NCBI GenBank assembly: GCA_013289855.1
Contig: JABCZD010000008.1
Location: 1-64,000 of the forward strand
DNA: 64,000 bases
Origin: Acidobacteriota bacterium
Lineage (GTDB): Bacteria > Acidobacteriota > Terriglobia > Acidiferrales > UBA7541
Direction of reading: 5' to 3'
Part shown: in pieces, positions 9,949 to 50,506 of the stretch
How the letters are laid out: each line of letters opens with the position of its first letter
Position numbering within the stretch: position 1 is the stretch's first letter
The notes under the pieces: model-generated
What the model was told of the DNA's origin: nothing
What the model saw: only the letters and a program-made list of their open reading frames with translations
The model's database searches: none
Made by a program: the position numbers and the translations under genes

Positions 9949-9965
9949 AGTTCGCTCATTCCCGC

Positions 9966-10613: not shown

Positions 10614-10622
10614 GGCGCGTCC

Positions 10623-11258: not shown

Positions 11259-11260
11259 GG

Positions 11261-29051: not shown

Positions 29052-30011
29052 TTACAAGCCTACCGAACTGGCCACGGATCCCTCTTCCACCCGGGCTTTG
29101 GGATGGAACAGTGCCCGCACCTTCCGTCGGAACGACGACCGCAATACCCACATGGCCGTAAATATCGAAACTTCCATCACCCCCGGCCTGCCATGCCGGA
29201 ACATCTCTTTAAACAACTCCGGCACCGCTCCCCACGCACCCTCCATCGACGCCTCCGGCGCCAGTTGCGTCGAAATAAACCCCGCGTACGCTCGTGGCGT
29301 CATTCGCTCGCGGTTCCCTTGCAGCCACTCCAGCGACGAACGCCAGTTTTGCCCATTCGTGATCGATTCCCGCGGCTGCTCGATGTACCACAGCACCAGC
29401 GGCTCCCGCACAAAATGAAACGCCACTCCCGGGATCCGATCCACCCGCAAATACCATTCCGTATCCTGATGCCGCCGCAGCCCACTGGTAAATGGTGCCA
29501 GCTCCAGCAACGTCTTTCGCGTCATCAGCACCGAGGTCTGCAGCTGCCCCTCGCCGCGGAACAAACTCCTCCGATTAAACAGGTACTCACAGATCGGCTC
29601 CCCGTCCGCGGGAAATCTTCGCGGCCAGGGAAATCTTCCTGTCGGGCTGATCCCCACCATCCCCGTCGAAATAATCGGGTAAGGCTCCGTGGCCTGTATC
29701 GCCACCGCCGCTTGCTTCTCCAGCTTTGTGGGCAGCCATTCGTCGTCGTCGTCCAGAAACGCGATCCACTCCCCTGCCGCGTGCCGCACTCCCGCGTTCC
29801 GCGCGTCCGAACCGCCCACCGAAGCCGGCAGCACAATCGGTCTCAGCCGCGCGTCCGAAACTTTCGCCAGCGCAGCGCTGCTCTTCGCGCACGGTCCGTC
29901 AATCACCACCAGTACTTCTAGCTCCCGGTGCGTCTGCGCCAAAGCGCTCTTCACCGCCCGCAACAGCAGGTCCGGACGATTGCGTGTCGGAATCACCACC
30001 GAAATCAGCAC
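29052..30011 (-). CDS. Glycosyltransferase family 2 protein
   Basis: This inverting GT-A glycosyltransferase starts in the first beta strand: VLISVVIPTRNRPDLLLRAVKSALAQTH. The GTG at 30011 is the more natural start (319 residues); TTG at 30032 would add seven. Nucleotide-binding LVVIDGP and the metal-binding FLDDDDEWLPTKLEKQ (D-x-D-like) are visible, and a conserved acidic WYLRVD acceptor-site segment lies near residue 190. The extended C-terminal 80 residues may be a membrane-associated tail (IFTAMWVL). It probably adds a sugar to the exopolysaccharide repeat. A terminator-like site separates it from the O-antigen ligase gene upstream. Confidence 0.92.
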   Translation of the reverse strand: MLISVVIPTRNRPDLLLRAVKSALAQTHRELEVLVVIDGPCAKSSAALAKVSDARLRPIVLPASVGGSDARNAGVRHAAGEWIAFLDDDDEWLPTKLEKQAAVAIQATEPYPIISTGMVGISPTGRFPWPRRFPADGEPICEYLFNRRSLFRGEGQLQTSVLMTRKTLLELAPFTSGLRRHQDTEWYLRVDRIPGVAFHFVREPLVLWYIEQPRESITNGQNWRSSLEWLQGNRERMTPRAYAGFISTQLAPEASMEGAWGAVPELFKEMFRHGRPGVMEVSIFTAMWVLRSSFRRKVRALFHPKARVEEGSVASSVGL

Positions 30012-30032
30012 AAATGCCCCCGTAAACGTCAA

Positions 30033-30356: not shown

Positions 30357-31667
30357 TCACGTCTGGTAACCCGGAAGAATCCCGTTCACTCCGGAAACCT
30401 CCCCATCCCCACCGTCGTCGGACGCCGCGGTCTCGGTAGCCAATTGCCTTCCCTCAACCTGCGCCAGCGCCAGCGATACATAAATCGTCACGTAAGGAAT
30501 CCAGAAAAACGACATCAACCGCAGAATGTAACTTTCACCCAGGTTCAGCACCGCCAAAAATAACAGCACGAACAGTGCGAACTTCGCCGAGCTACTCTCA
30601 TTCGCGCGGAACAAACTACCGGCTCGCCACAAACTGGTGATAAACCCGCCAAAAAATATAAGTAAACCGACAATTCCGACACTGAGCAAAATGTCGAGAT
30701 ATCCATTATGGGCGTGGGGAGGACGCCAGCCGCTCAGCACGTACAGTACCTTCTGCAAATCCCGGGACCATTCGACCCAGAAAACATCGTATCCGTAGCC
30801 CCACCAGGGATGTCTGCCGATGGCATTCAGAACTTCTTTCCACATAGGTATGCGACTGGTCAAAGTGGAACTGCGGCCCGCCGCTTCCGCAATGATGTCG
30901 AAATTGCGGATCGCGAGCAAAGCGCCCATCGCCAAGATCGGCACGAGCGGAACCCACAGCGGCAACGTTTTGCGGCTCGAAATCCGCATAAGATGAACGA
31001 CCGGGTACATCGCGATGCAGAACAGCAGCGCAACCAGCGCGGTCGCGGAATTAGAGAGAATGAGCAAGATGCAAGCCCCGCTGAGGGTGGTAATTCGGAG
31101 CCAGGCTGGTATGGCCTTTGGTTTTCCGAACACGAAAACCAGCATGACAAACACCACCATCGCGCTCATGGTGTTCTTTTGCGGGTAGAGCCCTTTCACA
31201 CTTCCCATGTGCAAGTCGGTGGAGAGCCCATAGGAAGGTATGAAGATGGCGGCACAGGCGCTTCCAAAAACGATTAGAATGGACAGCCATCCGAACAAAT
31301 TCATCTGTTCGTCCCAGTCGAAGCAAGTGGCGATGAAAATGGCGAACAAAGTCACAGCCCAGAGAAAAATGGCGTGACGCAGCGTGAAACGCGGATCGTA
31401 CGACCACGCCGTGGAAGCAAGCGCCAGGCCGCACAGCGCGACAATCCAGCCTGCATGGCGCAGACCATCGAGTACTTTTCTCCAGTGAATCACCAGGAAT
31501 GGTACTAGGGTCGCACAGAAAAGTAACCTCGCGACACTCTCCCACGGCTGCGGCTGTGCGCGGCCCGTCAAACCGCCTGCCCCAATGTTTCCAGCTACCC
31601 CGACCCCCGTGAGGAACAGCAGGGTCGCGACAACATAAGCTTTTTCGAGATTTTGCAATATCTTCAT
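30357..31667 (-). CDS. O-antigen ligase/polymerase (Wzy/WaaL-like)
   Basis: This 436-residue polytopic protein probably polymerises or ligates the lipid-linked repeat in the periplasm. About 11 to 12 hydrophobic helices surround the Wzy_C region: LTSRIPMWKEVLNAIGRHPWWGYGYD near 273 and PPHAHNGYLDILLSVGIVGL near 315. The periplasmic loop with the H-x-H/N-G-Y pattern is the usual active region. It has ATG start 31667 and a four-base overlap with the flippase gene, so the two are translated together. The C-terminus is an acidic soluble tail. Wzy and WaaL cannot be told apart from sequence alone. Confidence 0.9.
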   Translation of the reverse strand: MKILQNLEKAYVVATLLFLTGVGVAGNIGAGGLTGRAQPQPWESVARLLFCATLVPFLVIHWRKVLDGLRHAGWIVALCGLALASTAWSYDPRFTLRHAIFLWAVTLFAIFIATCFDWDEQMNLFGWLSILIVFGSACAAIFIPSYGLSTDLHMGSVKGLYPQKNTMSAMVVFVMLVFVFGKPKAIPAWLRITTLSGACILLILSNSATALVALLFCIAMYPVVHLMRISSRKTLPLWVPLVPILAMGALLAIRNFDIIAEAAGRSSTLTSRIPMWKEVLNAIGRHPWWGYGYDVFWVEWSRDLQKVLYVLSGWRPPHAHNGYLDILLSVGIVGLLIFFGGFITSLWRAGSLFRANESSSAKFALFVLLFLAVLNLGESYILRLMSFFWIPYVTIYVSLALAQVEGRQLATETAASDDGGDGEVSGVNGILPGYQT

Positions 31668-32965
31668 GCTCGTTCCGCGGAAAGCTGAGGACTCATGCGC
31701 GCCTCCCTGGCCATCACAAACATCAGAATGCCGTACATCACAACCGCCAATGTGCCGTCACAGGCCAGACTCGACCACGCGGCTCCGCGCCACGAATACA
31801 ACGGAATCAACCAGAAATTCAGTCCTACGTTGAGCAGGGCAACGAACACTTGCGCCGCCGTGCGCAAACCCTGATACCCGGCTCCCGTTACCGAGTCCGA
31901 AAGGAAATAATGGATCGTCTTCAGCAACGGCAAAAGCGCCAGCCATCGTAACGCTTCTACGGTGCGCGCGAAATCCTTGCCGATGACCAGGGGAAATACG
32001 GGCGCCAGCAAATACAGCCCGGCAAACGCCACAACCGAATACCCGATCATCCGCGGCAAGATTCGCTTGGCGTAGGCAAAACTTGCCGCAATGCCGTGCT
32101 GCCCTTTGCGAAAAAAATTAGAGTACGCTGCATGCAAAACCGACCTGACCGGCACGAACGCCACGTCAATTACGCGATACGCCGCGCCATAAATACCGGT
32201 GCCGTCCAGAGTCGAAAGACTCGCCATCATCGTCTTGTCGATATCGTTGTAAACCGTCTGAGCGCTTAGTCCCGCGCCAAAGTAAAATCCCTCGACCAGC
32301 TCCGCCCTAATCCGTGAAAGCTGTAGCCGCGGGGCGCCCAGCTTCCAGTTCGTGATCACGATTCCGACCACACAGGAAATTGCCGTGCTGCCAAGATAAA
32401 ACCACCCCAGCGTCATTGCCGAAGCGTGATGCCAAACGCTGATGATAATTGCCGCGGAAATCAAACGCAGGGTAAACGGAAGCAAACCGACGCTCGCCGT
32501 ATAGTTCATCTGATCCATGGCCTGAAAGGCATTCGCTGCGAAATCGTTGATGCGCGCCCCGATCATGTCGGACAAACAAATCACCACAATCAGTAGCATT
32601 GGAATCGTCGGCGGCAGAATCCAGTGCGCCACAATTATGATGACGCCCATTAACGCGAGCCCGGAGACGCACAGCAAGAAGAGCGCGTTGCCCCAGTACA
32701 CGGCAAAGAGAGACTTGTCTCGTGACACATTCTTGATTAGCAGATTTCCGGCGCCGGCGCCGGCAAACGGCGCGGCAATGGCGATCAGCGCGGTGGTGCC
32801 CACGAACGCACCATACTCGCGCGGACCGAGCGCCCGCGCGATCAAAATAAAATAACCCGCTTGGACAATGATGCGAAGGCCATAGCCCAGGAACATCCAC
32901 ACGGAGTTCCGCCCCAACGTGCTCTGTTTGACGCGGACAATCCAGGATTTGGCGTAATCGATCAT
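31664..32965 (-). CDS. Polysaccharide flippase (Wzx/MATE-like)
   Basis: This 433-residue membrane protein of the MOP superfamily flips lipid-linked sugar repeats across the inner membrane. The N-terminal helices (GRNSVWMFLGYGLRIIVQAGYFILIARALGPREYGAF at about 18-55) carry the polysaccharide-biosynthesis signature RALGPREYG. About 12 to 14 transmembrane helices run to the C-terminus. It has ATG start 32965. It overlaps the ligase/polymerase gene by four bases, indicating a Wzx/Wzy-dependent pathway. Confidence 0.92.
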   Translation of the reverse strand: MIDYAKSWIVRVKQSTLGRNSVWMFLGYGLRIIVQAGYFILIARALGPREYGAFVGTTALIAIAAPFAGAGAGNLLIKNVSRDKSLFAVYWGNALFLLCVSGLALMGVIIIVAHWILPPTIPMLLIVVICLSDMIGARINDFAANAFQAMDQMNYTASVGLLPFTLRLISAAIIISVWHHASAMTLGWFYLGSTAISCVVGIVITNWKLGAPRLQLSRIRAELVEGFYFGAGLSAQTVYNDIDKTMMASLSTLDGTGIYGAAYRVIDVAFVPVRSVLHAAYSNFFRKGQHGIAASFAYAKRILPRMIGYSVVAFAGLYLLAPVFPLVIGKDFARTVEALRWLALLPLLKTIHYFLSDSVTGAGYQGLRTAAQVFVALLNVGLNFWLIPLYSWRGAAWSSLACDGTLAVVMYGILMFVMAREARMSPQLSAERA

Positions 32966-33076: not shown

Positions 33077-34519
33077 TCAGTCCGCGGAGTTGCTGGCCCT
33101 CAGCGCCGGGACAGGCTCTGCGGAATACTCAACACCCGGCAACGATTCCGCCGCCGGATGCGCCGACGCACGGCCTATGCTGTGATAAATGAATCCTGCC
33201 TTTGCCATGGCCGCGGGTTGGTAGAGATTCCGCCCGTCAATCACGATCGGATATTTTAACAGCGCGCGCATCCGTTTGAAATCCAGCACAGCAAATTCCG
33301 CCCATTCCGTCAAAATCAAAAGTGCGTCCGAACCGCGCGCCGTTTCGTACTCATCGTCCACATAGGTGACGCTCGCCGCGGACAACACCTTCCTGGCGTT
33401 CGGCATGCCGGCCGGATCATAAACTTTTAACTGCGCTCCTTCCTTCACCAGCGCCTCAATAATCGAAAGGGCGGGCGATTCGCGCACATCATCCGTGTCC
33501 GCTTTAAAAGCCAGGCCCAGCACACCGAGCTGCTTGCCACGCAGCGTCCACAGCGCACTACGGATCTTTTTCAAAAACCGCACGCGCTGATCACTGTTGA
33601 TACGCATCACTTCGGTCAGCAAACCAAAGTCATAGTTGCACTGTTCAGCCACGGAGCGGAAGGCCTGCACATCCTTCGGGAAGCATGAGCCCCCATAGCC
33701 AATTCCGGCGTTCAAAAATTTCGACCCAATTCGCGAATCCGAACCAATCCCCGCGCACACCTGCTGAATATCCGCTCCCACTTCCTCGGAAATATTCGCC
33801 ACCGCGTTAATAAACGAAATTTTCATCGCCAAAAACGCATTCGAGGCGTGCTTAATCAACTCCGCGCTCTTCGCGTTGGTCACAACCATCGGCGCCTTCG
33901 CATACCGGTAGCTCTCTAACGGAAACCGCGCCGGCTCCCCATAATAGCTGCCGCTCGTCAACGGTTTATAGACCGCCTGCATGACCGATGCGCTCGCTGA
34001 GTCGTCCGCCCCGATTACAATCCTGTCTGGGTAAAGAAAATCCGTAACCGCCGAGCCTTCTCGTAAAAATTCGGGATTCGAGACCACGGAAAACGTGCCG
34101 GACGCAGCGCCATTCAAAGTCAGTGACTTGTGCAACCATTCGCAGGTCCGCACTGGAACCGTGCTCTTCTCCACGATAACTTTGGAACCCGCAAGAGCCG
34201 TCGCGATTTCATACGCGACCGCTTCCACATAGGATAAATCCGCCTCGCCTGTCTGCGATTGCGGCGTACCTACGGTGATGAACACCACATCCGATTGCCG
34301 CACCGCATCCGGCACGGAGGTCGAAAAAAGCAATCGCTCACCCTTGTGTCGCGCCAGCAACTCCGGAAGATACTGCTCGTGGATGGGCGTTTCGCCGCGC
34401 TCGAGCGCGGCGATCTTTAAGCCATCGTTATCCACACTAATGACGTTATGGCCGATCTCCGCAAAACAAACTGCCGAAACCAGCCCCACATACCCAGACC
34501 CTATCACCGCAATGCGCAT
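33077..34519 (-). CDS. ugd: UDP-glucose 6-dehydrogenase
   Basis: This enzyme oxidises UDP-glucose twice with NAD to UDP-glucuronate in the cytoplasm. The 480-residue protein starts with the NAD motif IAVIGSGYVGLVSAVCFAE at about 3-21. The conserved EKSTVPVRT lies near 118 and NPEFLREGSAV near 150. The catalytic cysteine is in GYGGSCFPKDVQAF near 272. The C-terminal UDP-binding domain follows. It has an additional 40-residue tail. It sits between the flippase and sugar transferase genes and supplies uronic acid for the exopolysaccharide, consistent with the lyase-like gene nearby. Confidence 0.95.
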   Translation of the reverse strand: MRIAVIGSGYVGLVSAVCFAEIGHNVISVDNDGLKIAALERGETPIHEQYLPELLARHKGERLLFSTSVPDAVRQSDVVFITVGTPQSQTGEADLSYVEAVAYEIATALAGSKVIVEKSTVPVRTCEWLHKSLTLNGAASGTFSVVSNPEFLREGSAVTDFLYPDRIVIGADDSASASVMQAVYKPLTSGSYYGEPARFPLESYRYAKAPMVVTNAKSAELIKHASNAFLAMKISFINAVANISEEVGADIQQVCAGIGSDSRIGSKFLNAGIGYGGSCFPKDVQAFRSVAEQCNYDFGLLTEVMRINSDQRVRFLKKIRSALWTLRGKQLGVLGLAFKADTDDVRESPALSIIEALVKEGAQLKVYDPAGMPNARKVLSAASVTYVDDEYETARGSDALLILTEWAEFAVLDFKRMRALLKYPIVIDGRNLYQPAAMAKAGFIYHSIGRASAHPAAESLPGVEYSAEPVPALRASNSAD

Positions 34520-34600: not shown

Positions 34601-36043
34601 CTACGCTGCTCCCGATCCCTTAATTACCGCCGGGATTGTCCGCGCCAAAATTTGCAGGTCCAACCAAATGGACCACTTGTCGATATATTCCATGTCCAAT
34701 TCCATCCACTGCTCAAATGGCAGCTCACTTCGCCCCTTGATTTGCCACAGGCAGGTAATACCCGGCGGAACACTGAAACGCCGTCGCTGCCAGTCCTCAT
34801 CGAACAATTGATAATCCCGCGTAGGAATAGCCCTCGGGCCCACCAGGCTCATATCCCCTTTGAGCACGTTCAGCAGTTGCGGCAGTTCGTCGATGCTGGT
34901 TTTCCGAAGAATTTTGCCAATCGGCGTTATTCGCGGGTCATTGGTAATCTTAAAAACCGGACCGGTCATCTCATTCAAATGCAACAACTCTTCCTGAATT
35001 CTCTCGGCGTTAGGGACCATGGTGCGAAACTTGTACATCGTGAATTTTCGCTTATTGAGGCCCACGCGCTGTTGCCCAAAAAAGACAGAGCCGGGCGAGG
35101 TAAGTTTGATCAGCGCTGCGGTCAACAGGAGTATCGGCGCCAGAACCACCAACGCAAACAACGAAATCGTCAGGTCGATCCCACGTTTGAACACAAAGGG
35201 CCAGCCTTCGCTTACCACGCCCGGCGTGGCAATCTGCGGATCGCCATCGACGGCCACTATGCGCGGCTTGGCCAGCTTCAAATTGAAAATGTCGGTATCG
35301 AAACGCAGCATGATGCCATGCTGCTCGCATACCGCGGCCATGCGCGCGGCATGCTCGTAATAGGAGCGCAGCGGCAAATAAATCGCCACTTCATCCACCA
35401 CATTGTGCCGCAAAAACTCCGCCACGCCGGAAAAGTCGCACGCCAACGGCAATCCGGTGGCTTGAAACTCGTGCATCAACGCCCAATCGTGATCGACAAA
35501 ACCCACGAGGCGATAGCCGTATTCCGGCACTGCGGCCATTTTCCGCGCAAAGGCGATGGCCCGCGCATTGGTTCCCATGATCAGGATGTGGCGCAGATTA
35601 TGTCCATCGCGCCGCACACCCGCCAGCCAGTAGCGCAGCAGCCAGCGTGAGGCACACACCGCCATGGATACGATGGCCCAGAAGAGCAGCAAAAATTTCG
35701 GGGTGTTCACCATGCGCAAGGAGAACAGCATCGCCAGAACCGCGAGGCACGCGGTCGAAAGCGCGGTGGCTTTTAGCGCGTCCAGCAGTTCCGCCCGCTT
35801 GGTCGACAATCTCTTCGACTCATACAAGCCGCACAAGGAAAGCATTATGTGGCACAAAAATAGCGCCAGCGCAAAAATCGCGCAGTTGGACAGCTTTACG
35901 CGGTACGAAAGAAATTGTTCGAGTGGCGTGGCGTGTTGTGCGGTAGCCACAAGAAACGTCGCGAGCCCGAACGAACAGAACACCAAGCCCACATCGAACA
36001 ATTTCAGCGCATTCAAAAGAAACCGACGGTTTACGTCACTCAC
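34601..36043 (-). CDS. Polyprenyl-phosphate sugar-1-phosphate transferase (WbaP-like)
   Basis: This 480-residue initiating transferase loads the first sugar onto undecaprenyl phosphate. The N-terminal half has about four transmembrane helices and a nucleotide-binding CoA-like domain (residues about 140-260). The C-terminal bacterial sugar transferase domain has YKFRTM near 335, [24 protein letters not shown] near 370, and [16 protein letters not shown] near 398, ending in [18 protein letters not shown]. This is the conserved catalytic set of the Wbap/EpsL group. The GTG start at 36043 has no better neighbour. It lies 239 bases after gumC and 81 before ugd. Confidence 0.94.
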
Positions 36044-37865: not shown

Positions 37866-38501
37866 TCACTGCACAGCCAAAACTCGTCTTCCGTTTTCCG
37901 TCTGGCAAGTGCGCTGCGGTCCTGCCGAGACCGGTACAACTCTGAAACCGCTGATCCGGATGGCCACCGACCGTTCGATCAAATCAATGGAAACGACCAG
38001 GTTCTTTTTTCCTTCCATACCCGTCAGCAGCCCTTCCAACCCGTCCAGACTGCCCCCGCAGATGCGCACCTTCTCGCCGACTTGCACGAAGGGATGCGGC
38101 TCGACAGGAATCTTTTCCCGCAACACCGTCTGTATCGTCGCGATCTCCTCGTCGGGAATCGGGACGCCAACCCCGCGAACTCCCAGGAAGCCCAGCACGC
38201 CATCCGTCTGCAACACCGGTACGCGGGCGGGAGCCTCATGCGCAATCTTCACGAACACATAGCCGGGGAACAGCGGCAGCTCGACAACCTTGCGGCGGTC
38301 GCTCCATTGATGATCCGCGCTGCTCAGCGGCAAGTACACTTCCACCGCCTTCTCTCGCAAACCCGCAGTGACCCGTTTTTCGTGCCGCGAACGCGTTTGA
38401 ATGGCAAACCACCGCAAGTCGCCAGCAAGCGTCGCGCATTGCTCGGCGGCCGCCGGTTCGCTGGCGTCGTTTCCGTCCCGCACTGTAGCTAAAGTCGACA
38501 A
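37866..38501 (-). CDS. UpxY/RfaH-type transcription antiterminator (NusG family)
   Basis: This 211-residue NusG paralogue probably lets RNA polymerase read through the long exopolysaccharide operon. The NGN domain at about residues 28-125 starts WFAIQTRSRHEKRVTAGLREKAVEVYLP and includes ELPLFPGYVFVKI. A C-terminal KOW domain follows at about 150-200 (VQVGEKVRICGGSLDGLEGLL). Such loci-specific NusG factors (UpxY, RfaH, LoaP) are often encoded inside the operon they control. TTG 38501 is the annotated start; a GTG at 38483 is an alternative. It lies between the CpsD-like and gumC genes. Confidence 0.9.
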   Translation of the reverse strand: MSTLATVRDGNDASEPAAAEQCATLAGDLRWFAIQTRSRHEKRVTAGLREKAVEVYLPLSSADHQWSDRRKVVELPLFPGYVFVKIAHEAPARVPVLQTDGVLGFLGVRGVGVPIPDEEIATIQTVLREKIPVEPHPFVQVGEKVRICGGSLDGLEGLLTGMEGKKNLVVSIDLIERSVAIRISGFRVVPVSAGPQRTCQTENGRRVLAVQ

Positions 38502-38636: not shown

Positions 38637-39395
38637 CTACATCCGGTGATACAACGAATCGGGGATTGGAAACGTGCGCTTGTTCAGCACCGCTCCCAAG
38701 ACTCGAACCTGTTTCGCGCGCAGGCCTTCCGCCACGCGCAACGCTGCCTCGCGCCGGGTGTTGTTGGCTTCCAGCACCATCACCACGCCGTCCGAAAGCT
38801 GTCCTAGGACGATGCCATCGGAATAAGTGTTGAGCGGCGGCGAGTCGATTAGCACGTAGTCAAACTCTTTTCGCAGTTCCGCGATGCGCGATTTCATCAA
38901 CTCGGAGTTGACCAGCAGAGTGGAATCCGCCGCCAGCGAGCCGCTGGACAGCAGAAACAGGTTGGGCGCGCGCAGGGTCTTGGCAAACTCCCGGATGCCT
39001 CCGCTATTGCGCAACGAATCCGCCAGTCCGTGGTGGTTGGTTACGCCAAAATATTCGGGCAGCGCAGGGGTGCGCAAATTGGCATCCACCAGACACACCG
39101 ATCCCGTGACGTTGCTGGCCAGAACTTCCGCGGCGTGCGCGCAGACGTGGCTGCAACCGTTGCCAGAATCGATGGCCGCAAACATCACCACGCGCGGCGG
39201 AGTCGGCCCGGCCGACAGAAAAATGCTCTGCACCAGCCGCAGCGTTTCCTCTTCCGTCACGCGGTCCAGATTCAGCCGTGCGGAATGGCCGTTGCCATTC
39301 CCAGGTTGAAACGGGAGTGAGACACCGGAGTGCGACGCAGATGCGGTTCCACCGTTTAGCTCCACTTGCTGCAACAATTCAAAATTCTTGCTCAT
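38637..39395 (-). CDS. CpsD/CapB-like P-loop protein with degenerate Walker A
   Basis: This is a 252-residue BY-kinase/MinD-fold protein. In place of the Walker A signature (G-x-G-K-S/T) residues 76-84 read DSGNGCSHV, so the ATP-binding lysine is a cysteine. Walker A-prime reads CLVDANLRTP at 101-110, with Asn for the usual acid. Walker B DYVLIDSPP at 179-187 is intact. No C-terminal tyrosine cluster is visible (one Tyr, near 249). It is therefore probably not an active tyrosine kinase but could be a regulatory or scaffold partner of the GumC-like protein. It overlaps the ExeA-like gene by four bases. Confidence 0.9.
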   Translation of the reverse strand: MSKNFELLQQVELNGGTASASHSGVSLPFQPGNGNGHSARLNLDRVTEEETLRLVQSIFLSAGPTPPRVVMFAAIDSGNGCSHVCAHAAEVLASNVTGSVCLVDANLRTPALPEYFGVTNHHGLADSLRNSGGIREFAKTLRAPNLFLLSSGSLAADSTLLVNSELMKSRIAELRKEFDYVLIDSPPLNTYSDGIVLGQLSDGVVMVLEANNTRREAALRVAEGLRAKQVRVLGAVLNKRTFPIPDSLYHRM

Positions 39396-40846
39396 GGTTT
39401 CTTCGCCTCCGCGGCCGAAGTATTTCCCAACGGTTCTACAGAAAGATTGGTGCGTGCCATTAAACTGCCCGGGGTCGGAATACGAATTTCCTGGCCAACG
39501 TGTAAGTGGCGCGGGCTGTCGAAACCAGGATTGAGTTCGCGAATCATCGCCAGCACTTGCTGGTCATAGCGACCAAGATTGTTCATGCAGATTTGATAAA
39601 GGGTGTCTTGCTTTTCGATGCGAACTACTTCGGAATCCGCGCGCGAAGCCGTTGGGTCAGCGACCACGGTCGGCGTTGTCGGTGCATCCGCTTGGTGATT
39701 TACGGGGTTTCCATCGGCGACCGCGGGTTGCGCTACATCCGGGGACGCGGTAATTGGCGCGGAGTTTGTAGCAGCGGTAGCAGCAGCATTCGTCGATAGC
39801 GTCGGCGACGCGGACGCCGCGGCAATCGATACCGCAGCGGCGGGAGTGGCCGCAACGTGTTGATTCTTGCCCAGCACCGTTAATCCGAATCCCGCGAGCA
39901 CCGCAACCACCGCGGCAATGCCTACGCGCACCTTCCATTGCTTGGGAAGAAACGCGGTCACGCGCGTCAAGAGATTCCCCTGCAGCGGCGCGATCTGGGC
40001 GGGCAGGTTAAGCGCGGCTGGCGCGGACTTGGACAATGGCGCGAGGTCCAGATCCCGCAGCACTTCCTCAACGATCGCTGCGTTAATGGTCTTGCGCTGC
40101 ATCGCGCAGCCCAGGGAAAGCGCATTGAAACAAATATTATTGATGTTCCGCGGAATTCCGGCGGAATACTCGGCGATCAACGCGTACGCGCGATCGGTGA
40201 ACAGCGGCTGTTCGTCGCGATAGCCGGCCACGCGCAACCGGTGGTCAATATACGCGCGGGTCTCGTCGATGTTAAACGGCGCGAGCCGCGCGATGATGGA
40301 AATGCGCTGGCGTAGCTGCAGCATTTGCTGCGACGCCAGGCGGGTGGCCAATTGCGGCTGCCCCGCGAGAATGATGTGCATCAATTTCTCGCGCGGCGTC
40401 TCAAAATTGGAGAGCATGCGCACCACTTCCAGCACCGGCGCGTCCAGATTCTGCGATTCGTCCACCACCACCACGAAATGCTTGCCCTGACTGGTCTCCC
40501 GCACCAGGCATTCATTCAGCTTGACCTGCATGCGATAGAGATCTTCTCCATCATCTTCGACGCCCAGATCTAAAAGCAGGTTGCGCAGAAAATTTCGCGG
40601 AGTGTCGTGCGACTGGAAAAGGAACGCCGTCTTGGCGGTCTCGCCCAACTGCTGCAGCAGGTTGAACAGCACCGTCGTCTTCCCCATGCCGGGTTCGGCG
40701 ATCAGCGCCGTAAATCCGCGCCCCGCCTTCACGCCGTACAGCACCGAAGCCATGGCTTCGCGATGCGTGGCGCTCAGGTACAAAAAGCGCGGGTCGGGGG
40801 TAACCCCGAACGGTTGCTCAGCAAGTTGGTAGTAGTTCAAAACCAT
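39392..40846 (-). CDS. ExeA-like AAA ATPase with C-terminal LysM domain
   Basis: This 484-residue fusion protein has an N-terminal AAA domain (1-270) of the ExeA/GspA type, with Walker A AEPGMGKTTVL at 50-60, Walker B FVVVVDESQNLDAP near 133, and GIPRNINNICFNAL near 230. A transmembrane helix lies near 310-330, followed by an Ala/Thr-rich linker. A LysM-like domain near 410-460 (DTLYQICMNNLGRYDQQVLAMIRELNPGF...LHVGQEIRIP) probably binds peptidoglycan in the periplasm. Similar ATPases accompany polymer export in exosortase-type EPS loci. It sits 23 bases after the wza-like gene and overlaps the cpsD-like gene by four bases. Confidence 0.92.
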   Translation of the reverse strand: MVLNYYQLAEQPFGVTPDPRFLYLSATHREAMASVLYGVKAGRGFTALIAEPGMGKTTVLFNLLQQLGETAKTAFLFQSHDTPRNFLRNLLLDLGVEDDGEDLYRMQVKLNECLVRETSQGKHFVVVVDESQNLDAPVLEVVRMLSNFETPREKLMHIILAGQPQLATRLASQQMLQLRQRISIIARLAPFNIDETRAYIDHRLRVAGYRDEQPLFTDRAYALIAEYSAGIPRNINNICFNALSLGCAMQRKTINAAIVEEVLRDLDLAPLSKSAPAALNLPAQIAPLQGNLLTRVTAFLPKQWKVRVGIAAVVAVLAGFGLTVLGKNQHVAATPAAAVSIAAASASPTLSTNAAATAATNSAPITASPDVAQPAVADGNPVNHQADAPTTPTVVADPTASRADSEVVRIEKQDTLYQICMNNLGRYDQQVLAMIRELNPGFDSPRHLHVGQEIRIPTPGSLMARTNLSVEPLGNTSAAEAKKP

Positions 40847-40869: not shown

Positions 40870-41628
40870 CTAAAAGTTGGTGGCTGGATAGTAGCCCGTC
40901 CCGAGACTGTACGGCACGTACTTACGAAACTTGGTGATGGCTTTTTCCGGGACGAAAATCATGTCGCCGGGAGAGAGATGCACTTCTTCATTCACGTTTT
41001 TGCCGTTGAGCACATCTTTGATATTCAATCTTTTTACTTCCATCGTGGTGGGCGAAATCGGGTGATAGTACAGCAACTGCGTCTTCGCGGTGGGGGAGAA
41101 GCCGCCAGCCACGGCTACGGCCTGGGTAACGGTCATGTCGTAGCGCAAATCATACTGGCCGGGCTTTCCGACCTGGCCGAGCACCACGAAATAAGGCTTT
41201 TGAAAATCGGTAAGGTCGACGTCGATAATCGGATCGTGCAGCACACCGGCATACGCTTTCTTGATGGCCTCTACCGCTTCGGGCACCGTCAGTCCGAGGA
41301 TGTACACGCTTCCCGCGCCCTGCAGGTTCACGTAACCGTCCGGCATGACCATAATTTTTTGATTGAATTCCGGCGCGATGGGAAAGGTGAGCGTCAGCGC
41401 GTCGTCGCGGCAAATTTTGTAGCGCGGATTGCGCTGCCCCGGCACCGGATGTTGCACGTCCTGCGACGCGTTCGATTGCGCAGGCGTGTTTGCGGCGGGC
41501 GTATTCGCCGCGGGAGTATTGGTCTTTGGAGTATTGGCCGCCAGCGTCGCGACACCTCCGCACCAGCCGGCAAATATCACCAACGAGAAGGTAGTAAAGA
41601 AAGCTTTAACGCAGGCAGTGGTTTTCAC
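40870..41628 (-). CDS. Polysaccharide export protein (Wza-like)
   Basis: This 252-residue exported protein has a hydrophobic signal (about 8-30), a short Asn-Thr-Pro-Ala-rich tandem segment (about 35-52), and a polysaccharide export (Poly_export) domain at about 70-165 (DGYVNLQGAGSVYILGLTVPEA, PYFVVLGQVGKPGQYDL). A SLBB-type region follows at about 165-245. It forms the outer-membrane or periplasmic export channel for the polymer. No clear lipobox: the only Cys near the signal is in FAGWCGG, a weak match. The GTG start is preceded by GGAG eight bases away. It is the first gene of the core minus-strand EPS operon, after a 490-base leader. Confidence 0.9.
   Translation of the reverse strand: MKTTACVKAFFTTFSLVIFAGWCGGVATLAANTPKTNTPAANTPAANTPAQSNASQDVQHPVPGQRNPRYKICRDDALTLTFPIAPEFNQKIMVMPDGYVNLQGAGSVYILGLTVPEAVEAIKKAYAGVLHDPIIDVDLTDFQKPYFVVLGQVGKPGQYDLRYDMTVTQAVAVAGGFSPTAKTQLLYYHPISPTTMEVKRLNIKDVLNGKNVNEEVHLSPGDMIFVPEKAITKFRKYVPYSLGTGYYPATNF
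41450..41525 (-). repeat. In-frame short tandem repeat in the export-protein gene
   Basis: Within the export-protein gene the codons for a five-residue unit of the type NTPAA are repeated about three to five times with changes, giving a Pro/Ala/Asn-rich linker after the signal. It is likely to vary in copy number between strains. Confidence 0.55.
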
Positions 41629-44778: not shown

Positions 44779-46401
44779 ATGAAACTCTTGCATTCCGTTT
44801 GCCGCCACGCCCTACCATTGCTTCTCGCTACACTGATTTGCACGGCGTCCACACAGGCGCAAAGCAAGCCCACCGCAAAACCCGCTGCAGCGCCCAAGGA
44901 AACCGCCGCCGAGCAACGCGCCGATGCCGGCCTCGATGTAGCGAGGTCCAGCCCGCTGGCCCTCTACGCGTGGCTCGTAAAGATGCCCAAGGGCGCCGAT
45001 TTGCACATCCACCTTTCTGGCGCGATCTACGCCGAGACTTTTATCCAAGATGCCATCGAAGATCATCTTTGCGTAAACGTCAGCACCCTGGCTTTCGCAA
45101 AACCGGAATCCGCTTCCACGGTCACCGGCGAGCCCACTTGCAAAGAAAATGACGTGCCCGCCGCGCAAGCCGACAAGGATCAATTTCTCTACGACGCGCT
45201 CGTGGATGCCTTTTCCATGCGTGGTTTTGTGCCCACCACCGGCACCACTGCCCACGATCATTTCTTCGACACTTTTGACAAATTTCACGGCACCGACAAG
45301 CGACACCTCGGCGAGTGGCTGGACGAAGTCGCCACGCGCGCGGCGGCGCAAAACGAGCAATACCTGGAATTGATGCACACGCCAGCCTTCACGTACGCTA
45401 GGGCTGCAGCCGCCGCCGTACCTTGGCAAGCAGACGGGCAGAAAAACGGGCAAGAAGATTTCGCACAACTCCGCGATCAACTTTTGGCCCACGGCCTGCG
45501 CGACGATATCGCCACCACCCGCGCCGAACTTGACGCCGCGGAAGCACTACGCAACCAGCGCGAACACTGCAACCAGTCCGACGCCACCCCAGCCTGTCGT
45601 GTGCAGCTGCGCTACCTCTATCAGGTGCTGCGCGGGCTACCCAAAGAAATCGTCTTCGCGCAAGCGGTGCTGGCCTTTGAAACTGCCAGCGTCGATCCCC
45701 GCTTCGTGGGACTAAATTTCGTGATGCCGGAAGACAGCTACACCGCCATGACGGACTACAACCTGCACATGCACATGCTCGACGTGCTGCACACGCTGTA
45801 TCCCAAAATAAATATTTCACTGCACGCCGGCGAACTCGCGCCCGGCCTGGTCCCCTACGAAGGTCTCTGCTGCCACGTGCGCCTGGCCGTGGAACAAGGT
45901 CACGCGCAACGCATCGGCCACGGCGCGGATATCATGTACGAAACGCGTCCGCACGAAATCTTGAAAGAAATGGCGGCCAAACACGTAATGGTGGAAATTA
46001 ATCTCACCAGCAATGACATAATCCTGGGAATCGCCGGCGACGATCATCCATTGCCCATCTACCACGAATTTCATGTCCCCGTAGCGCTCTCCACGGACGA
46101 CGAAGGCGTCAGCCGCATCGATCTGACTCACGAATTTGTCCGCGCGGTGGACACCTACAACCTCCACTATTCGGACCTTAAGGAATTGGTGCGCACCAGC
46201 CTGGAACACGATTTCTTACCGGGCGAAAGTCTCTGGCGCGAACCCGATGATTTTGCCGCCACGGTCACACCGTGCGCCCACGATGCGCTGGGTACCGACG
46301 CCCCAACAAAACTCTGCGCCACTTTTCTGCAAGCCAGCGAAAAAGCCACGCAACAATGGGAATTAGAGCGCCGCTTCCATGACTTCGAATCGCAATTCTG
46401 A
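44779..46401 (+). CDS. Secreted adenosine deaminase family protein
   Basis: This 540-residue protein starts at ATG 44779 with a signal peptide (about 1-28, TLICTASTQAQ). Zinc-dependent ADA motifs are intact: DLHIHLSGAI near 74 (two His ligands), HAGEL near 354 (catalytic Glu), GHGADI near 380, and STDDEGVS near 440 (Asp zinc ligand). The length exceeds typical bacterial ADA (about 340) and fits the ADGF/extracellular type with extra N- and C-terminal helices. It deaminates adenosine to inosine outside the inner membrane. Divergent from the NUP-family gene and near the AzgA-like permease, it forms a purine-scavenging module. Confidence 0.92.
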   Translation: MKLLHSVCRHALPLLLATLICTASTQAQSKPTAKPAAAPKETAAEQRADAGLDVARSSPLALYAWLVKMPKGADLHIHLSGAIYAETFIQDAIEDHLCVNVSTLAFAKPESASTVTGEPTCKENDVPAAQADKDQFLYDALVDAFSMRGFVPTTGTTAHDHFFDTFDKFHGTDKRHLGEWLDEVATRAAAQNEQYLELMHTPAFTYARAAAAAVPWQADGQKNGQEDFAQLRDQLLAHGLRDDIATTRAELDAAEALRNQREHCNQSDATPACRVQLRYLYQVLRGLPKEIVFAQAVLAFETASVDPRFVGLNFVMPEDSYTAMTDYNLHMHMLDVLHTLYPKINISLHAGELAPGLVPYEGLCCHVRLAVEQGHAQRIGHGADIMYETRPHEILKEMAAKHVMVEINLTSNDIILGIAGDDHPLPIYHEFHVPVALSTDDEGVSRIDLTHEFVRAVDTYNLHYSDLKELVRTSLEHDFLPGESLWREPDDFAATVTPCAHDALGTDAPTKLCATFLQASEKATQQWELERRFHDFESQF

Positions 46402-46420
46402 TTACGCGGTCGGCAGATGC

Positions 46421-46723
46421 TTACCGTGACCTTGTCCGTCGCGAACCCACAATTGCAAATTTCACGCCAAGCGCCCGCAACACCGAATTGATTGTTTCAA
46501 AGCGCGGATGTGCGCCCGCGCTCAGAGCTTTGTAGAGGCTCTCCCGGCCGAGTCCAGCCTCTTTGGCGATCTGCGCCATGCCTCGAGCTTTCGCCACATC
46601 GCCGAGTGCGGCAACGAATACATCAGGGTTCGGATCTTCGGCCGCCGCCGAAAGATACTCCGCGATGACCGCGTCGTTATCCAAATACGCCGCTGCATCG
46701 AAGGCTTTGTATGTTGTCTTCAT
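46421..46723 (-). CDS. HigA-type antitoxin (addiction-module antidote)
   Basis: This is a 100-residue helix-turn-helix antidote of the HI1420 family. It starts at ATG 46723 (a longer frame continues upstream but is not protein-like). Features are TTYKAFDAAAYLDNDAVIAEYL at the N-terminus, the DNA-binding GMAQIAKEAGLGRESLYKALS near 53, and HPRFETINSVLRALGVKF near 76. It neutralises a cognate RelE/HigB-type toxin. The toxin frame upstream ends with a TGA overlapping this ATG (ATGA), but contains an internal stop. The antidote thus persists while its toxin seems broken. Confidence 0.92.
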   Translation of the reverse strand: MKTTYKAFDAAAYLDNDAVIAEYLSAAAEDPNPDVFVAALGDVAKARGMAQIAKEAGLGRESLYKALSAGAHPRFETINSVLRALGVKFAIVGSRRTRSR

Positions 46724-47061
46724 TGTGCTGCTCCCTTGAATTCCCGCGCCATCCTTTTCGCTCTGGCAATGTCTTTCGTTTGCGACGCTTTCACGCCGCC
46801 CGCCAGCAAAACTTAAACGGTCGTTCCCGCTCGCATGTAGTAGACGCGATACCCTGCTCCGACATGAATTCGCATTTCGGAAAGACCTTCGCCAACGGGT
46901 TCGCAATCGCCAAAGTTTCCCAATGTCGCACTGCGCAACCGCGCCAGGATTCTGGCTTTCGCTTTTTGGTCGGCCAGTTTGGACAGCCAACCGTCAAAAT
47001 CGGATGACCGAAGAAGCGTATTCAACCCTGCGATTGTATCTGATTGGATACAGTTCCGCAC
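46720..47061 (-). pseudogene. HigB/RelE-type toxin gene interrupted by an in-frame stop
   Basis: This is the HI1419-family toxin upstream of the antidote. From the likely start region (GTG 47061; TTG 47025 also possible) the frame reads WLSKLADQKAKARILARL, GNFGDCEPVGEGLSEMRI and GAGYRVYYMRAGTTV, then TAA at 46813-46815. The same frame then continues with VLLAGGVKASQTKDIARAK and ends in TGA overlapping the antitoxin ATG. The lost end corresponds to the conserved LLxGGDKxxQxxDIxxA tail. It is a nonsense mutation, a sequence error or a readthrough case; as read, the toxin is probably inactive. Confidence 0.8.
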
Positions 47062-47138
47062 GTCGAATTGAAGCTCCTCGCTGCGAGCGATAGAATGCGA
47101 AGTTCGTATCGGTGGTATAAGGGACCAGAGGGATTGCA

Positions 47139-48668
47139 ATGGCAGAAAGCACGGTTCTAACCGAGAGCGCGCCCCGGTTTGCTGGTGCTGCGCCCGTCAT
47201 CGAACATTTCGACGTATTGATCGTGGGTGCGGGACTCTCCGGAATCGGCGCGGCCTATCACCTGCAGCAGGAATGTCCGTCAAAGAGCTACGCGATACTT
47301 GAAGGCCGCAGCACTAGCGGAGGAACCTGGGACCTGTTTCGCTACCCGGGCATACGCTCAGATTCCGACATGTTTACGCTCGGCTACCGCTTTCGTCCTT
47401 GGCGAGAGGCCAAGGCCATCGCCGACGGCCCTTCCATCCTGAACTACATTCGCGATACCGCCAGCGAAAGCGGCATCGATCTCAAGATTCGCTACGACCA
47501 TAAGGTCACGCTAGCATCGTGGTCCACCGCAGACGCGAGATGGACCGTTGACGTCGAGCTTCCAGAAGGAAAAACCGTACAATACACCGCCAACTTTCTC
47601 TTCATGTGCACCGGCTATTACGACTTCGAAGAAGGCTACATGCCGGGCTGGCCGGGCATGGACCTCTTTCAGGGCCGCATCGTGCACCCGCAACATTGGC
47701 CCGAGGATCTGGACTATCAAGGTAAGCGCGTCGTGGTGATTGGCAGCGGCGCGACCGCGGTAACTTTGGTTCCCGCGCTGGCCGAAACGGCCGCTCACGT
47801 CACCATGCTGCAACGCTCGCCCAGCTACGTCGTGGCTCGCCCGTCCCGCGACTTCATTGCCGACTTTCTGCGCAAACACCTCCCCGCGCGGCTCGCTTAC
47901 AGTCTGGTGCGGTGGAAGAACGTGCTTATCGGCATGTACTTCTACAACCTGGCGCGGCGCAAGCCTGACGCAACAAAACAGGGCATCATGCAACTCGCGC
48001 AGAAAGAGCTTGGTCCGGATTACCCTGTCGCCAAGCATTTTTCGCCCAATTACAATCCGTGGGACCAGCGCCTCTGCCTCGTGCCCGACGCGGACCTCTT
48101 CGCCTCCATCCGCTCCGGTAAATCCTCGGTGGTTACCGACCAGATCGAAACTTTTACTCCCACAGGTTTACGCTTGAAGTCCGGCGAAGAATTGCCGGCG
48201 GACATGATCATCACTGCCACCGGCCTAAAGGTGGTCCTTTTTGGCGGCATGCAGGTAGTAGTCGACGGCGCTCCCGCCAGCGCCACGCGAACGCTCACCT
48301 ACAAAGGCATGATGTACAGCGATATTCCGAATCTGGCCTCGTCGTTCGGATATACCAACGCGTCCTGGACTCTAAAATCCGATCTAACCGCCGAGTATGT
48401 CTGCCGCCTGCTGAATCATATGGACGCCGGCGGTTACGCCTACTGCACGCCGCGCAGACGAGATCCTTCCATCACCGAGGAGCCTGCGATCAAGTTCAGC
48501 TCCGGCTATATCCAGCGCGCCAGCAACGTCCTCCCGAAACAAGGCTCCAAGAAACCGTGGAGGCTCAACCAGAATTACGCCTTGGACATGCTGGCGCTCC
48601 GCTTCGCCACCGTGGACGACGGCACCATGGAGTTCGCGCGCCTCAAAAACGGGGCACATAAATCTTGA
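47139..48668 (+). CDS. Flavin-containing (Baeyer-Villiger-type) monooxygenase
   Basis: This 509-residue FAD/NADPH monooxygenase has the first Rossmann motif VLIVGAGLSGIGAAYHL near 26. The BVMO signature FQGRIVHPQHWPEDL lies near 180 (F-x-G-x-x-x-H-x-x-x-W-P), and the second dinucleotide motif VVVIGSGATAVTLVPAL near 198. It inserts oxygen into ketones or oxidises N/S atoms; the substrate is unknown. It starts at ATG 47139 after GAGGG. It precedes an SDR gene by 16 bases, and SDR and hydrolase genes overlap, so a three-gene operon is likely. Similar gene sets occur in Mycobacterium mymA-type operons. Confidence 0.94.
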   Translation: MAESTVLTESAPRFAGAAPVIEHFDVLIVGAGLSGIGAAYHLQQECPSKSYAILEGRSTSGGTWDLFRYPGIRSDSDMFTLGYRFRPWREAKAIADGPSILNYIRDTASESGIDLKIRYDHKVTLASWSTADARWTVDVELPEGKTVQYTANFLFMCTGYYDFEEGYMPGWPGMDLFQGRIVHPQHWPEDLDYQGKRVVVIGSGATAVTLVPALAETAAHVTMLQRSPSYVVARPSRDFIADFLRKHLPARLAYSLVRWKNVLIGMYFYNLARRKPDATKQGIMQLAQKELGPDYPVAKHFSPNYNPWDQRLCLVPDADLFASIRSGKSSVVTDQIETFTPTGLRLKSGEELPADMIITATGLKVVLFGGMQVVVDGAPASATRTLTYKGMMYSDIPNLASSFGYTNASWTLKSDLTAEYVCRLLNHMDAGGYAYCTPRRRDPSITEEPAIKFSSGYIQRASNVLPKQGSKKPWRLNQNYALDMLALRFATVDDGTMEFARLKNGAHKS

Positions 48669-48684
48669 GCCGCTGCGAGGCGCT

Positions 48685-49509
48685 ATGCCCGGCACGATGA
48701 ATCTTCGTAATCGCACCGCTGTGATCACCGGGGCTGCCGGCGGCATCGGCAGGGGCGTCGCCATTTCGCTTTCGCGCCGCGGCTGCCATCTGGCCCTTGC
48801 GGACGTCAACGAAGCCGAACTCGCGCGCACCGCGGAAATGGTCGCAGCTCCGGGCTTGCGCGTTAGTCTGCATCGCCTCGATGTGGCCGATCGTGCCGCC
48901 GTGGCCATCTTGCCGGCCCAAGTGCTGGCGCAACATCCTGGTGTCGACGTCCTCGTCAATAATGCCGGTGTGGCCATTGGCGGCACGTTCGATCAAGTCA
49001 GCGAAGTGGACTTCGAGTGGCTCTTCGAGATTAATTTTTGGGGCGTGGTGCGCATGACGCGCGCTTTCATGCCCGCGTTGAAAGCCAGCGACGACGCCCG
49101 CCTCGTAAATTTATCCAGCGTTTACGGCATCATCTCGCCCCCTGGACAGACCGCCTATTCCGCCAGCAAGTTCGCCGTCCGTGGTTTTTCTAATGCTCTT
49201 CGTCACGAACTGGCCAGCTCCAAAGTCGGCGTGACCGTCGTGCATCCCGGCGGCATCGCCACCTCGATTGCCAAAAACGCTCGCGTCCCGAAAGGTGTTT
49301 CCGCGGAAGAGATGGAGCGCCACCTGAAGACTGCCGCAAAGCTGATGACCCTGCCTCCGGATACTGCGGGAGAAATTATTGTTGTGGGCATCGAGCACAG
49401 AAAAGCGCGCGTTCTCGTCGGCTCTGACGCCAAGATGATCGCGCTCATCGAGCGCTTCTTCCCGATCTCGTACATGAAGCACATCGAAAAATTGAAGCCG
49501 CGCGAATGA
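48685..49509 (+). CDS. Short-chain dehydrogenase/reductase
   Basis: This is a 274-residue classical SDR. The NAD(P) motif TGAAGGIGRGVAIS lies near 13, NNAGVAIGG near 92, and the catalytic Ser is in LSSVYGIISP with Tyr/Lys in YSASKFAVRGF near 158. The substrate could be a steroid, terpenoid or lipid alcohol. It starts at ATG 48685, with GAGG upstream. Its stop overlaps the hydrolase start (ATGA). Its place behind a Baeyer-Villiger-type monooxygenase suggests it makes the ketone substrate of that enzyme, which is an inference. Confidence 0.93.
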   Translation: MPGTMNLRNRTAVITGAAGGIGRGVAISLSRRGCHLALADVNEAELARTAEMVAAPGLRVSLHRLDVADRAAVAILPAQVLAQHPGVDVLVNNAGVAIGGTFDQVSEVDFEWLFEINFWGVVRMTRAFMPALKASDDARLVNLSSVYGIISPPGQTAYSASKFAVRGFSNALRHELASSKVGVTVVHPGGIATSIAKNARVPKGVSAEEMERHLKTAAKLMTLPPDTAGEIIVVGIEHRKARVLVGSDAKMIALIERFFPISYMKHIEKLKPRE

Positions 49510-50459
49510 TGACCTTCCTGCTTGCAGCAGCCATTGTCATAATTTTAATTGTCGCCGGCCTGATGATTTTCGCCGCCGTCACCGCGCGTCGCGTCGAACT
49601 CGCGCTGCCGCCCCGCGGCCGCTTCCTTGATGTTCCCGGCGCGCGCATCCACTATTTAGATCAGGGCTCCGGCCCCGCGATCGTTCTCGTGCACGGCCTC
49701 GGCGGCCAGATGGGCAACTTCACGCACTCTCTAGTGGAACGCCTCACCGGCAATTTCCGCGTGATTGTCATTGATAGGCCTGGCTCCGGCTATTCCACCC
49801 GCGCGCGCGACGAATTTGCGCGGATCAGCTTCCAGGCCGAGATGGTGGCTCAGTTCATTCGCGGTTTGGGGCTCGATCGTCCCTTATTGGTTGGACACTC
49901 GCTGGGCGGCGCGATTTCCCTGGCTGTGGCTCTTAATCACCCGGAGTGCATCAGCGGACTCGCGCTGATTGCACCGTTAACACACATGCCGGACGCGGTG
50001 GCCGAGCCCTTCAGGGGACTGGAGATCAACTCGAGTGTGCTCCGCCGCGCCGTAGCCTGGACCCTGGCAACTCCCATCTCGATTCGCCGGGGCAAGTCCG
50101 TGCTGGACGCCATCTTCAGTCCCGAAATCGCACCGCTCGATTTTCCCACCAAAGCGGGCGGACTCCTGGGCCTGCGCCCTCGCAGCTTTTATAACACCTC
50201 AACGGATATGGTGTCCGTCGTCACGGATCTGCCCGCGATGGCAGGGCGTTATGCCTCGCTAAAAGTTCCCGTGAGTGTTTTGTACGGGACCAGCGACGCG
50301 GTTCTCGACCACCAATTTCACGGCGTAGCGATGAAAGCTAAAGTGCCCGGTTTGTATCTAGAGCTCGTCGCGGGCGGCCACATGCTCCCGGTCACAGCGC
50401 CGGACGTGACCGCGAACTTCATAAAGAACGCGGCGCAACACCAGACCAATCTCGCCTAG
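49506..50459 (+). CDS. Alpha/beta hydrolase
   Basis: This 317-residue hydrolase has an N-terminal membrane-anchor-like segment (about 3-25, FLLAAAIVIILIVAGLMIFA). The alpha/beta fold shows LVHGLGGQMGNF (oxyanion HG) near 60, nucleophile elbow GHSLGGAISLAV near 130, the acid in GTSDAVLD near 265 and the histidine in AGGHMLPVTAPD near 293. The triad is intact. It overlaps the SDR gene by four bases. In a monooxygenase-SDR-hydrolase set it could hydrolyse the ester or lactone produced by a Baeyer-Villiger oxidation; the real substrate is not known. Confidence 0.93.
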   Translation: MMTFLLAAAIVIILIVAGLMIFAAVTARRVELALPPRGRFLDVPGARIHYLDQGSGPAIVLVHGLGGQMGNFTHSLVERLTGNFRVIVIDRPGSGYSTRARDEFARISFQAEMVAQFIRGLGLDRPLLVGHSLGGAISLAVALNHPECISGLALIAPLTHMPDAVAEPFRGLEINSSVLRRAVAWTLATPISIRRGKSVLDAIFSPEIAPLDFPTKAGGLLGLRPRSFYNTSTDMVSVVTDLPAMAGRYASLKVPVSVLYGTSDAVLDHQFHGVAMKAKVPGLYLELVAGGHMLPVTAPDVTANFIKNAAQHQTNLA

Positions 50460-50506
50460 TCTTCTCTAAGAAAGATCTCGTGGAAGAGGGCGCAAACCGC
50501 TCGTCG

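Follow-up and report, generated by a model that had tools for sequence, protein, structure and literature searches.

Within an exopolysaccharide (EPS) operon in the draft genome of a soil acidobacterium, the open reading frame (ORF) at 39392-40846 on the minus strand encodes an AAA+ ATPase of the XrtA/ExeA type that carries, beyond its ATPase domain, a single hydrophobic helix and, at the C-terminus, a LysM domain, and the CpsD-like protein encoded beside it is, to judge from its sequence, a conserved BY pseudokinase. The stretch that was analysed, here called the window, comprises bases 1-64000 of contig C8 of a 5.35 Mb draft genome; other genomes, contigs and loci are referred to by G, C and L numbers. 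What is new is that at most loci the pseudokinase gene immediately follows the ATPase gene, that the pseudokinase has lost its P-loop lysine, and that the LysM tail of the ATPase is not universal. Work on EcpK had raised the question of how the co-polymerase of a Wzx/Wzy exporter can be cycled without an active kinase, and the finding of a dead-looking kinase beside a motif-intact ATPase, locus after locus, offers a concrete candidate for the energy source. Through its LysM tail the ATPase could, in addition, anchor an export channel to the cell wall.

The exopolysaccharide operon of the window

Read along the minus strand, the operon runs from the export gene (OPX) through the LysM ATPase, the CpsD-like protein and the UpxY antiterminator to the GumC/Wzz-like polysaccharide co-polymerase (PCP), and then through transferase, dehydrogenase, Wzx, Wzy and glycosyltransferase genes (Table 1). 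The coordinates leave a gap of 23 bases between the export and ATPase genes and an overlap of 4 bases between the ATPase and CpsD-like genes. The set for a Wzx/Wzy-dependent pathway, namely transferase, Wzx, Wzy, PCP and OPX, is all found in this one cluster, with PCP matches that fall under both Pfam and NCBIfam cut-offs. The UpxY gene, which sits between the CpsD-like and GumC-like genes, was absent from the gene order given in an initial annotation of this DNA. Among the glycan genes past the operon, an Alginate_lyase-domain protein is encoded at 24786-25925 on the plus strand.

Table 1. Features of the exopolysaccharide operon and of its ATPase (window coordinates)
Feature	Position	Strand	Basis
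OPX-type polysaccharide export protein, N-terminal hydrophobic stretch	40870..41628	-	PF02563 (Poly_export) 48.6 bits, SLBB_2 34.4 bits
AAA+ ATPase with C-terminal LysM (reported ORF), 484 aa	39392..40846	-	Pfam/NCBIfam matches
AAA+ ATPase domain, residues 1-267, Walker A and B intact	40046..40846	-	TIGR03015, alignments, fold
Lone hydrophobic helix, presumed to span the membrane, residues 303-323	39878..39940	-	Hydropathy; modelled helix, moderate confidence
LysM domain, residues 405-457	39476..39634	-	PF01476, homologous tails, model
BY pseudokinase (putative), CpsD-like; P-loop Lys replaced by Cys, without Tyr-rich tail	38637..39395	-	Sequence; fold similar to VpsO/CapB/Wzc kinase domains
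UpxY-family (NusG-like) transcription antiterminator	37866..38501	-	NF033644 114 bits, cut-off 100
GumC/Wzz-like PCP without kinase domain, 500 aa	36283..37785	-	Wzz and GNVR just under Pfam cut-offs; TIGR03007 119 bits, under cut-off
Polyprenyl glycosylphosphotransferase (initiating sugar transferase)	34601..36043	-	TIGR03025 403 bits, above cut-off
Nucleotide-sugar (UDP-glucose type) dehydrogenase	33077..34519	-	TIGR03026 432 bits, above cut-off
Wzx-like flippase (Polysacc_synt)	31664..32965	-	PF01943 72.9 bits
Wzy-like polymerase (Wzy_C/O-antigen ligase family)	30357..31667	-	PF04932 78.1 bits
Family 2 glycosyltransferase, far end of run	29052..30032	-	PF00535 94.6 bits

Domain structure of the ATPase

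The kinship to ExeA-like ATPases of exosortase-linked EPS sets that the initial annotation had suggested is borne out by a match of TIGR03015 (pepcterm_ATPase) to the ATPase domain, at 242.1 bits and under the family cut-off of 324.5; AAA_22 matches the ORF with 73 bits. Of 79 unique ATPase ORFs, 77 show the Walker A and Walker B patterns, and the other two are fragments. In structure searches the predicted fold of the ATPase domain resembled Cdc6/ORC, MuB and TnsC, with Z scores up to 21.2, and some proteins of this kind make rings or filaments. The search that gave these scores, the second of its kind, was made with residues 1-279 only and is silent on the LysM domain. The sole match of a PDB sequence search (E 0.076, residues 310-399) lay outside the ATPase domain and was discarded.

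Scored on the single protein, the LysM match is thin: PF01476 aligns to residues 409-457 with 21.5 bits in the whole protein, where the gathering score is 20.9, and with 24.4 bits when the tail is taken alone. The identity of the domain holds despite this score, because homologous tails also match PF01476 (20 of 22 at E<=0.1), because alignment of the ATPase homologues shows the LysM motif to be kept and the linker not, and because the modelled fold agrees, residues 405-457 being predicted as strand-helix-helix-strand at block pLDDT 89-97. The hydrophobic helix is modelled less surely, at block pLDDT 64-78. ExeA/GspA carries a PG_binding_1-type domain, and no Pfam match of that type was found in the window ATPase ORF.

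A conserved pseudokinase in place of the kinase

Described initially as a plain CpsD-like protein, the neighbour of the ATPase has to be redescribed. At the site of the BY-kinase P-loop, GxGK[ST], it reads SGNGCSHV, and the P-loop lysine is replaced in all 58 pseudokinase homologues (38 Cys, 14 Ser, 6 Ala) while being kept in 16 of 16 comparison kinases. The homologues are unique proteins that best match the window's CpsD-like protein, with exact duplicates dropped; the comparison kinases consist of 4 that are nearer the exosortase-side kinase described below and 12 that are more distant and mostly Wzc-like (loci L121-L132), and the count leaves out L202 and L203, which are without the P-loop pattern, and L204 and L205, in which it is kept. 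The last 40 residues hold one tyrosine in the window's protein and 1-2 in the homologues, and an ending like RTFPIPxxxY takes the place of a Tyr-rich tail. Walker A' (CLVDANLR) and Walker B (YVLIDSPP) are largely kept in the window's protein and partly lost in its relatives, some of which are without Walker B. The best PDB matches to the predicted fold are the kinase domains of VpsO, CapA2B2 and Wzc, at E ~1e-16. The PCP ORFs of more than 400 aa (n=55) are 433-625 aa long, and the bare GxGK[ST] pattern occurs in two of them (L187, L194).

Pairing of ATPase and pseudokinase across loci

Gene order, to which the initial annotation had drawn attention, proves to be conserved around the ATPase, whose gene adjoins that of the OPX or of the PCP. 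In the cultured Silvibacterium bohemicum (L010) the genes run UpxY, OPX, PCP, LysM-tailed ATPase, pseudokinase and transferase. Among 54 loci holding both an ATPase of the LysM-ATPase family and a pseudokinase (the window excluded; L186 duplicates L014), the ATPase gene is followed directly, within 400 bases, by the pseudokinase gene at 50 and immediately preceded by a PCP gene at 46, although most of these loci were found via similarity to the LysM ATPase, so that the pairing is overstated, and all lie within Acidobacteriota, many in draft genomes. A reverse search of 61 genomes with the pseudokinase gave 24 matches at E<=7.1e-35, of which 20 have an ATPase in the same locus; L162 and L163 are without an ATPase in the DNA examined, and at L202 and L203 the sole ATPase is of the short type, at a distance of 2.6-4.4 kb. 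All four are EPS loci with a pseudokinase and no LysM-type ATPase adjoining. Conversely, members of the ATPase family occur near P-loop-intact kinases at L018, L178 and L100 (the ATPase of L100 is broken), and thus the ATPase is not simply a substitute for the kinase.

Partial correlations of distance matrices for 44 loci (ATPase-pseudokinase 0.47, ATPase-GumC 0.41, pseudokinase-GumC -0.12, GumC-EXPORT 0.65) put the ATPase in the middle, with the PCP on one side and the pseudokinase on the other, but they mirror gene adjacency, which alone could suffice to explain them; in the raw correlations ATPase-GumC (0.79) exceeds ATPase-pseudokinase (0.68). An apparent ATPase-pseudokinase fusion of 1014 aa at L197 was rejected, as it has only one predicted membrane helix and an out-of-frame-looking stretch before MSKNFELL, the start of the pseudokinase, and a frame shift joining two adjacent genes is likelier.

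Relatives of the ATPase on named contigs all come from Acidobacteriota. A phylum search with the single ATPase protein at E<=1e-64, with five candidates scored per genome, was too strict, finding, apart from the genome of the window, 2 of 296, and a class search with an ATPase profile at E<=1e-70 found 268 of 399 and includes the short exosortase-type ATPase; neither figure is a count of LysM ATPases.

Variety of tails in the ATPase family

The LysM domain seen on the window's ATPase is genuine and recurrent. The 54 unique ATPases of pseudokinase loci, here with the window included, divide into 33 with LysM, 11 with another tail and a likely membrane helix, and 10 without a helix, at a helix threshold of 1.4 (a stricter threshold shifts borderline cases). 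Because 21 of the 54 are without LysM, and 10 of these are helix-less, LysM cannot supply the central function of such operons. On a tree of 44 ATPase domains, the LysM label needs four changes, at least two of them forced by well-supported branches. LysM-tailed ATPases number 39 overall, and no pseudokinase was found near six: L013 and L017, which are near contig ends, and L169, L174, L177 and L178, which are not. In these last four loci (the ATPase of L178 lies at 9135-10811), no pseudokinase or recognised EPS core genes adjoin the LysM-tailed ATPase.

Other tails are of several kinds. Pfam identifies PEGA in L014, L187 and L201, and also in L197. An amidase-tail profile matches 11 ATPase ORFs, one of them a fragment and none in a pseudokinase locus; in these proteins an N-acetylmuramoyl-L-alanine amidase (Amidase_3) is joined to the ATPase across a hydrophobic helix. 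Pfam confirmed Amidase_3 in all four that were scanned (L086:3338-5734, L089:9379-11817, L091:10059-12425, L092:10007-12202) and an AMIN domain in L089 and L091, and our own profile assigned the amidase tail in L087, L088, L090, L093, L095 and L199. It is possible that such a chain is a one-chain, ATP-controlled wall cutter. No description of a LysM-tailed EPS ATPase or of an ATPase-amidase fusion was found among the open-access papers searched. Outside recognised EPS loci, a TonB C-terminal domain (PF03544) forms the tail of ATPases L196:7892-9787 and L198:8124-10157. At L082:5581-6972 the ATPase domain is followed by DUF2934 and HSP20, with no membrane helix found.

A possible role for the ATPase

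From sequence, gene context and predicted structure, we infer, tentatively, that the ATPase energises or organises a Wzx/Wzy exporter built of PCP, pseudokinase and OPX without tyrosine phosphorylation, and that in the window's lineage its LysM domain tethers it to peptidoglycan. The protein would be oriented with its N-terminus inside and would assemble at the inner membrane into a ring or filament that depends on ATP, where it might touch the PCP at its base and also the pseudokinase, which would serve as an adaptor. It may thereby drive or organise the cycles of PCP-OPX assembly that are otherwise timed by BY-kinase phosphorylation, and LysM, where present, would hold the complex to the sacculus as ExeA is held during secretin assembly. 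In this account LysM is best read as a lineage-variable anchor and not as the core activity. The intact motifs of the ATPase, beside a kinase that has lost its P-loop lysine, speak for such a role; against it stand the pseudokinases without a LysM-type ATPase nearby, the 6 of 39 LysM ATPases without a pseudokinase, and the 10 of 54 ATPases that are helix-less. The suggestion of the initial annotation that the ATPase may be an envelope-spanning organiser appears plausible.

Close to that suggestion is an account, which we think unlikely, in which the protein is an ExeA-like assembly factor docked on peptidoglycan, the binding of LysM being an essential step in building the OPX/PCP channel through the wall. 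Its domain layout is the same as that of ExeA in the available text of PMC4098917, LysM is kept in 33 of 54 ATPases across a linker that is not conserved, and other tails of cell-wall type occur in the family; yet an essential docking step sits poorly with the 21 ATPases of the same operon type that do without LysM, 10 of them without any membrane helix. Equally improbable in our estimate is a regulatory AAA+ protein, whose target might for example be the transferase, Wzy or gene expression, that is linked to the operon and has no part in PCP cycling. The fold is common to DNA-associated AAA+ proteins, helix-less members exist, and some members lie outside EPS loci, but at most loci the ATPase gene is flanked directly by those of the PCP and the pseudokinase, and one would hardly expect a cytoplasmic regulator to carry a membrane helix followed by a periplasmic-type LysM.

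Relation to exosortase/PEP-CTERM systems

The initial annotation had observed that no exosortase was in view, which is correct for the locus and not for the genome: PF09721 has a single match (160 bits) on contig C2, the ATPase locus being on C8, and PEP-CTERM matches number 13 at E<=10 and 8 above cut-off, with the motif at the end of the reading frame in seven of the eight and interior in L026. It had further held that an exosortase elsewhere with PEP-CTERM targets would place the locus in the known system. This does not follow, as the exosortase side is equipped with its own PCP, its own short ATPase and a kinase in which the P-loop is intact. The PCP and the kinase lie in the exosortase neighbourhood, and the short ATPase (316 aa) lies on the same contig ~39 kb from it, beside an export protein and a putative outer-membrane barrel, the latter judged by look. 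The short ATPase matches TIGR03015 with 290.8 bits, also under the cut-off of 324.5. The exosortase-side genes of this contig (G000; L022, L023) form two groups, export protein and short ATPase at 8651-11745 and PCP, kinase and exosortase at ~45600-52900, some 40 kb from each other, and the spacing of the groups is similar in G009.

A LysM-tailed ATPase was confirmed by the tail profile in 18 of 61 searched genomes, a lower bound, since not every match with a long open frame was included. Nine of the 18 have an exosortase match above cut-off (a fragment in G030) and nine have none, and completeness of the exosortase-free genomes is 94-98% in seven and 77% and 81% in the other two. An exosortase linked to the LysM ATPase was found in none of the 18; in the nine genomes with both, the two are always on different contigs, some of which are short, so that single cases are weak. 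By comparison, five of the 25 genomes that have an exosortase (G007, G030, G036, G053, G060) contain an ATPase frame of 312-366 aa no more than 7 kb from it. Five short ATPases form a separate clade on the tree of 44 domains, with 100/100 support. Because the ATPase of the exosortase side falls in a clade apart, and exosortase is absent or on another contig, the LysM-ATPase locus is a paralogous system. Service of the ATPase to the exosortase/PEP-CTERM system in trans is thus very improbable, the kinship to TIGR03015 and the co-occurrence of exosortase and PEP-CTERM proteins in one genome being outweighed by that separate clade and by the LysM-ATPase genomes, most of them nearly complete, that have no exosortase. 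The genome of Silvibacterium bohemicum (L010) gave a marginal PF09721 match of 28.6 bits (cut-off 25.7) in a 597-aa frame, and the three other genomes searched alongside it gave none.

Comparison with known systems

The TIGR03015 XrtA/PEP-CTERM-associated ATPases share with the window's ATPase homology over the whole ATPase model and a setting in EPS operons. The window's protein differs in scoring under the family cut-off, in belonging to another clade, in its added helix and LysM, in having no linked exosortase, and in a partner kinase without the P-loop lysine.

Its nearest studied analogue, by layout, is probably ExeA (ExeA/GspA) of type II secretion in Aeromonas hydrophila, a cytoplasmic ATPase with one transmembrane segment and a peptidoglycan-binding domain that, in the available text of PMC4098917, forms multimers with ExeB on peptidoglycan and is needed for secretin assembly. 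The two share an ATPase, a single transmembrane segment and a C-terminal domain of wall-binding type, as predicted for the window's protein and described for ExeA (PMC4098917), whereas the putative wall-binding domain of the window's protein is LysM and its neighbours are OPX, PCP and pseudokinase in place of ExeB and secretin.

The window locus resembles published pairs of BY pseudokinase and PCP-2, with an AAA+ ATPase added. As far as the available text of PMC12004946 describes them, EcpK/EpsV of Myxococcus xanthus and HfsB/HfsA of Caulobacter likewise combine a stand-alone kinase fold, without the P-loop lysine and the Tyr-rich tail, with a kinase-less PCP in a Wzx/Wzy pathway, and the window's pseudokinase and PCP fit the phosphorylation-independent PCP-2 group proposed for them. 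EcpK has lost Walker A' and Walker B (PMC12004946), which the window's pseudokinase for the most part retains. In the window, unlike in the EcpK and HfsB systems, the pseudokinase gene adjoins an ATPase gene and an extra AAA+ ATPase is present; the same available text contains no occurrence of ExeA, AAA, LysM or Acidobacteri.

The window's ATPase also leads to the amidase-tailed ATPases of the same family. A broad and rather doubtful generalisation would be that Acidobacteriota possess a transmembrane AAA+ family that couples ATP hydrolysis to swappable periplasmic modules (a LysM tether, an AMIN and amidase cutter, PEGA, TonB-C), one that in EPS operons might replace the BY kinase as the energy input for PCP cycling, giving a phosphorylation-free, wall-anchored exporter, and that elsewhere might drive wall cutting as a one-chain counterpart of FtsEX-EnvC-amidase. 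FtsEX is of the ABC type. In FtsEX-EnvC-amidase, as presented in the available text of PMC12505981, cytoplasmic ATP use is tied to a periplasmic amidase; the analogy applies to the amidase-tailed relatives only, which would achieve such a tie in one chain and with an AAA+ rather than an ABC ATPase.
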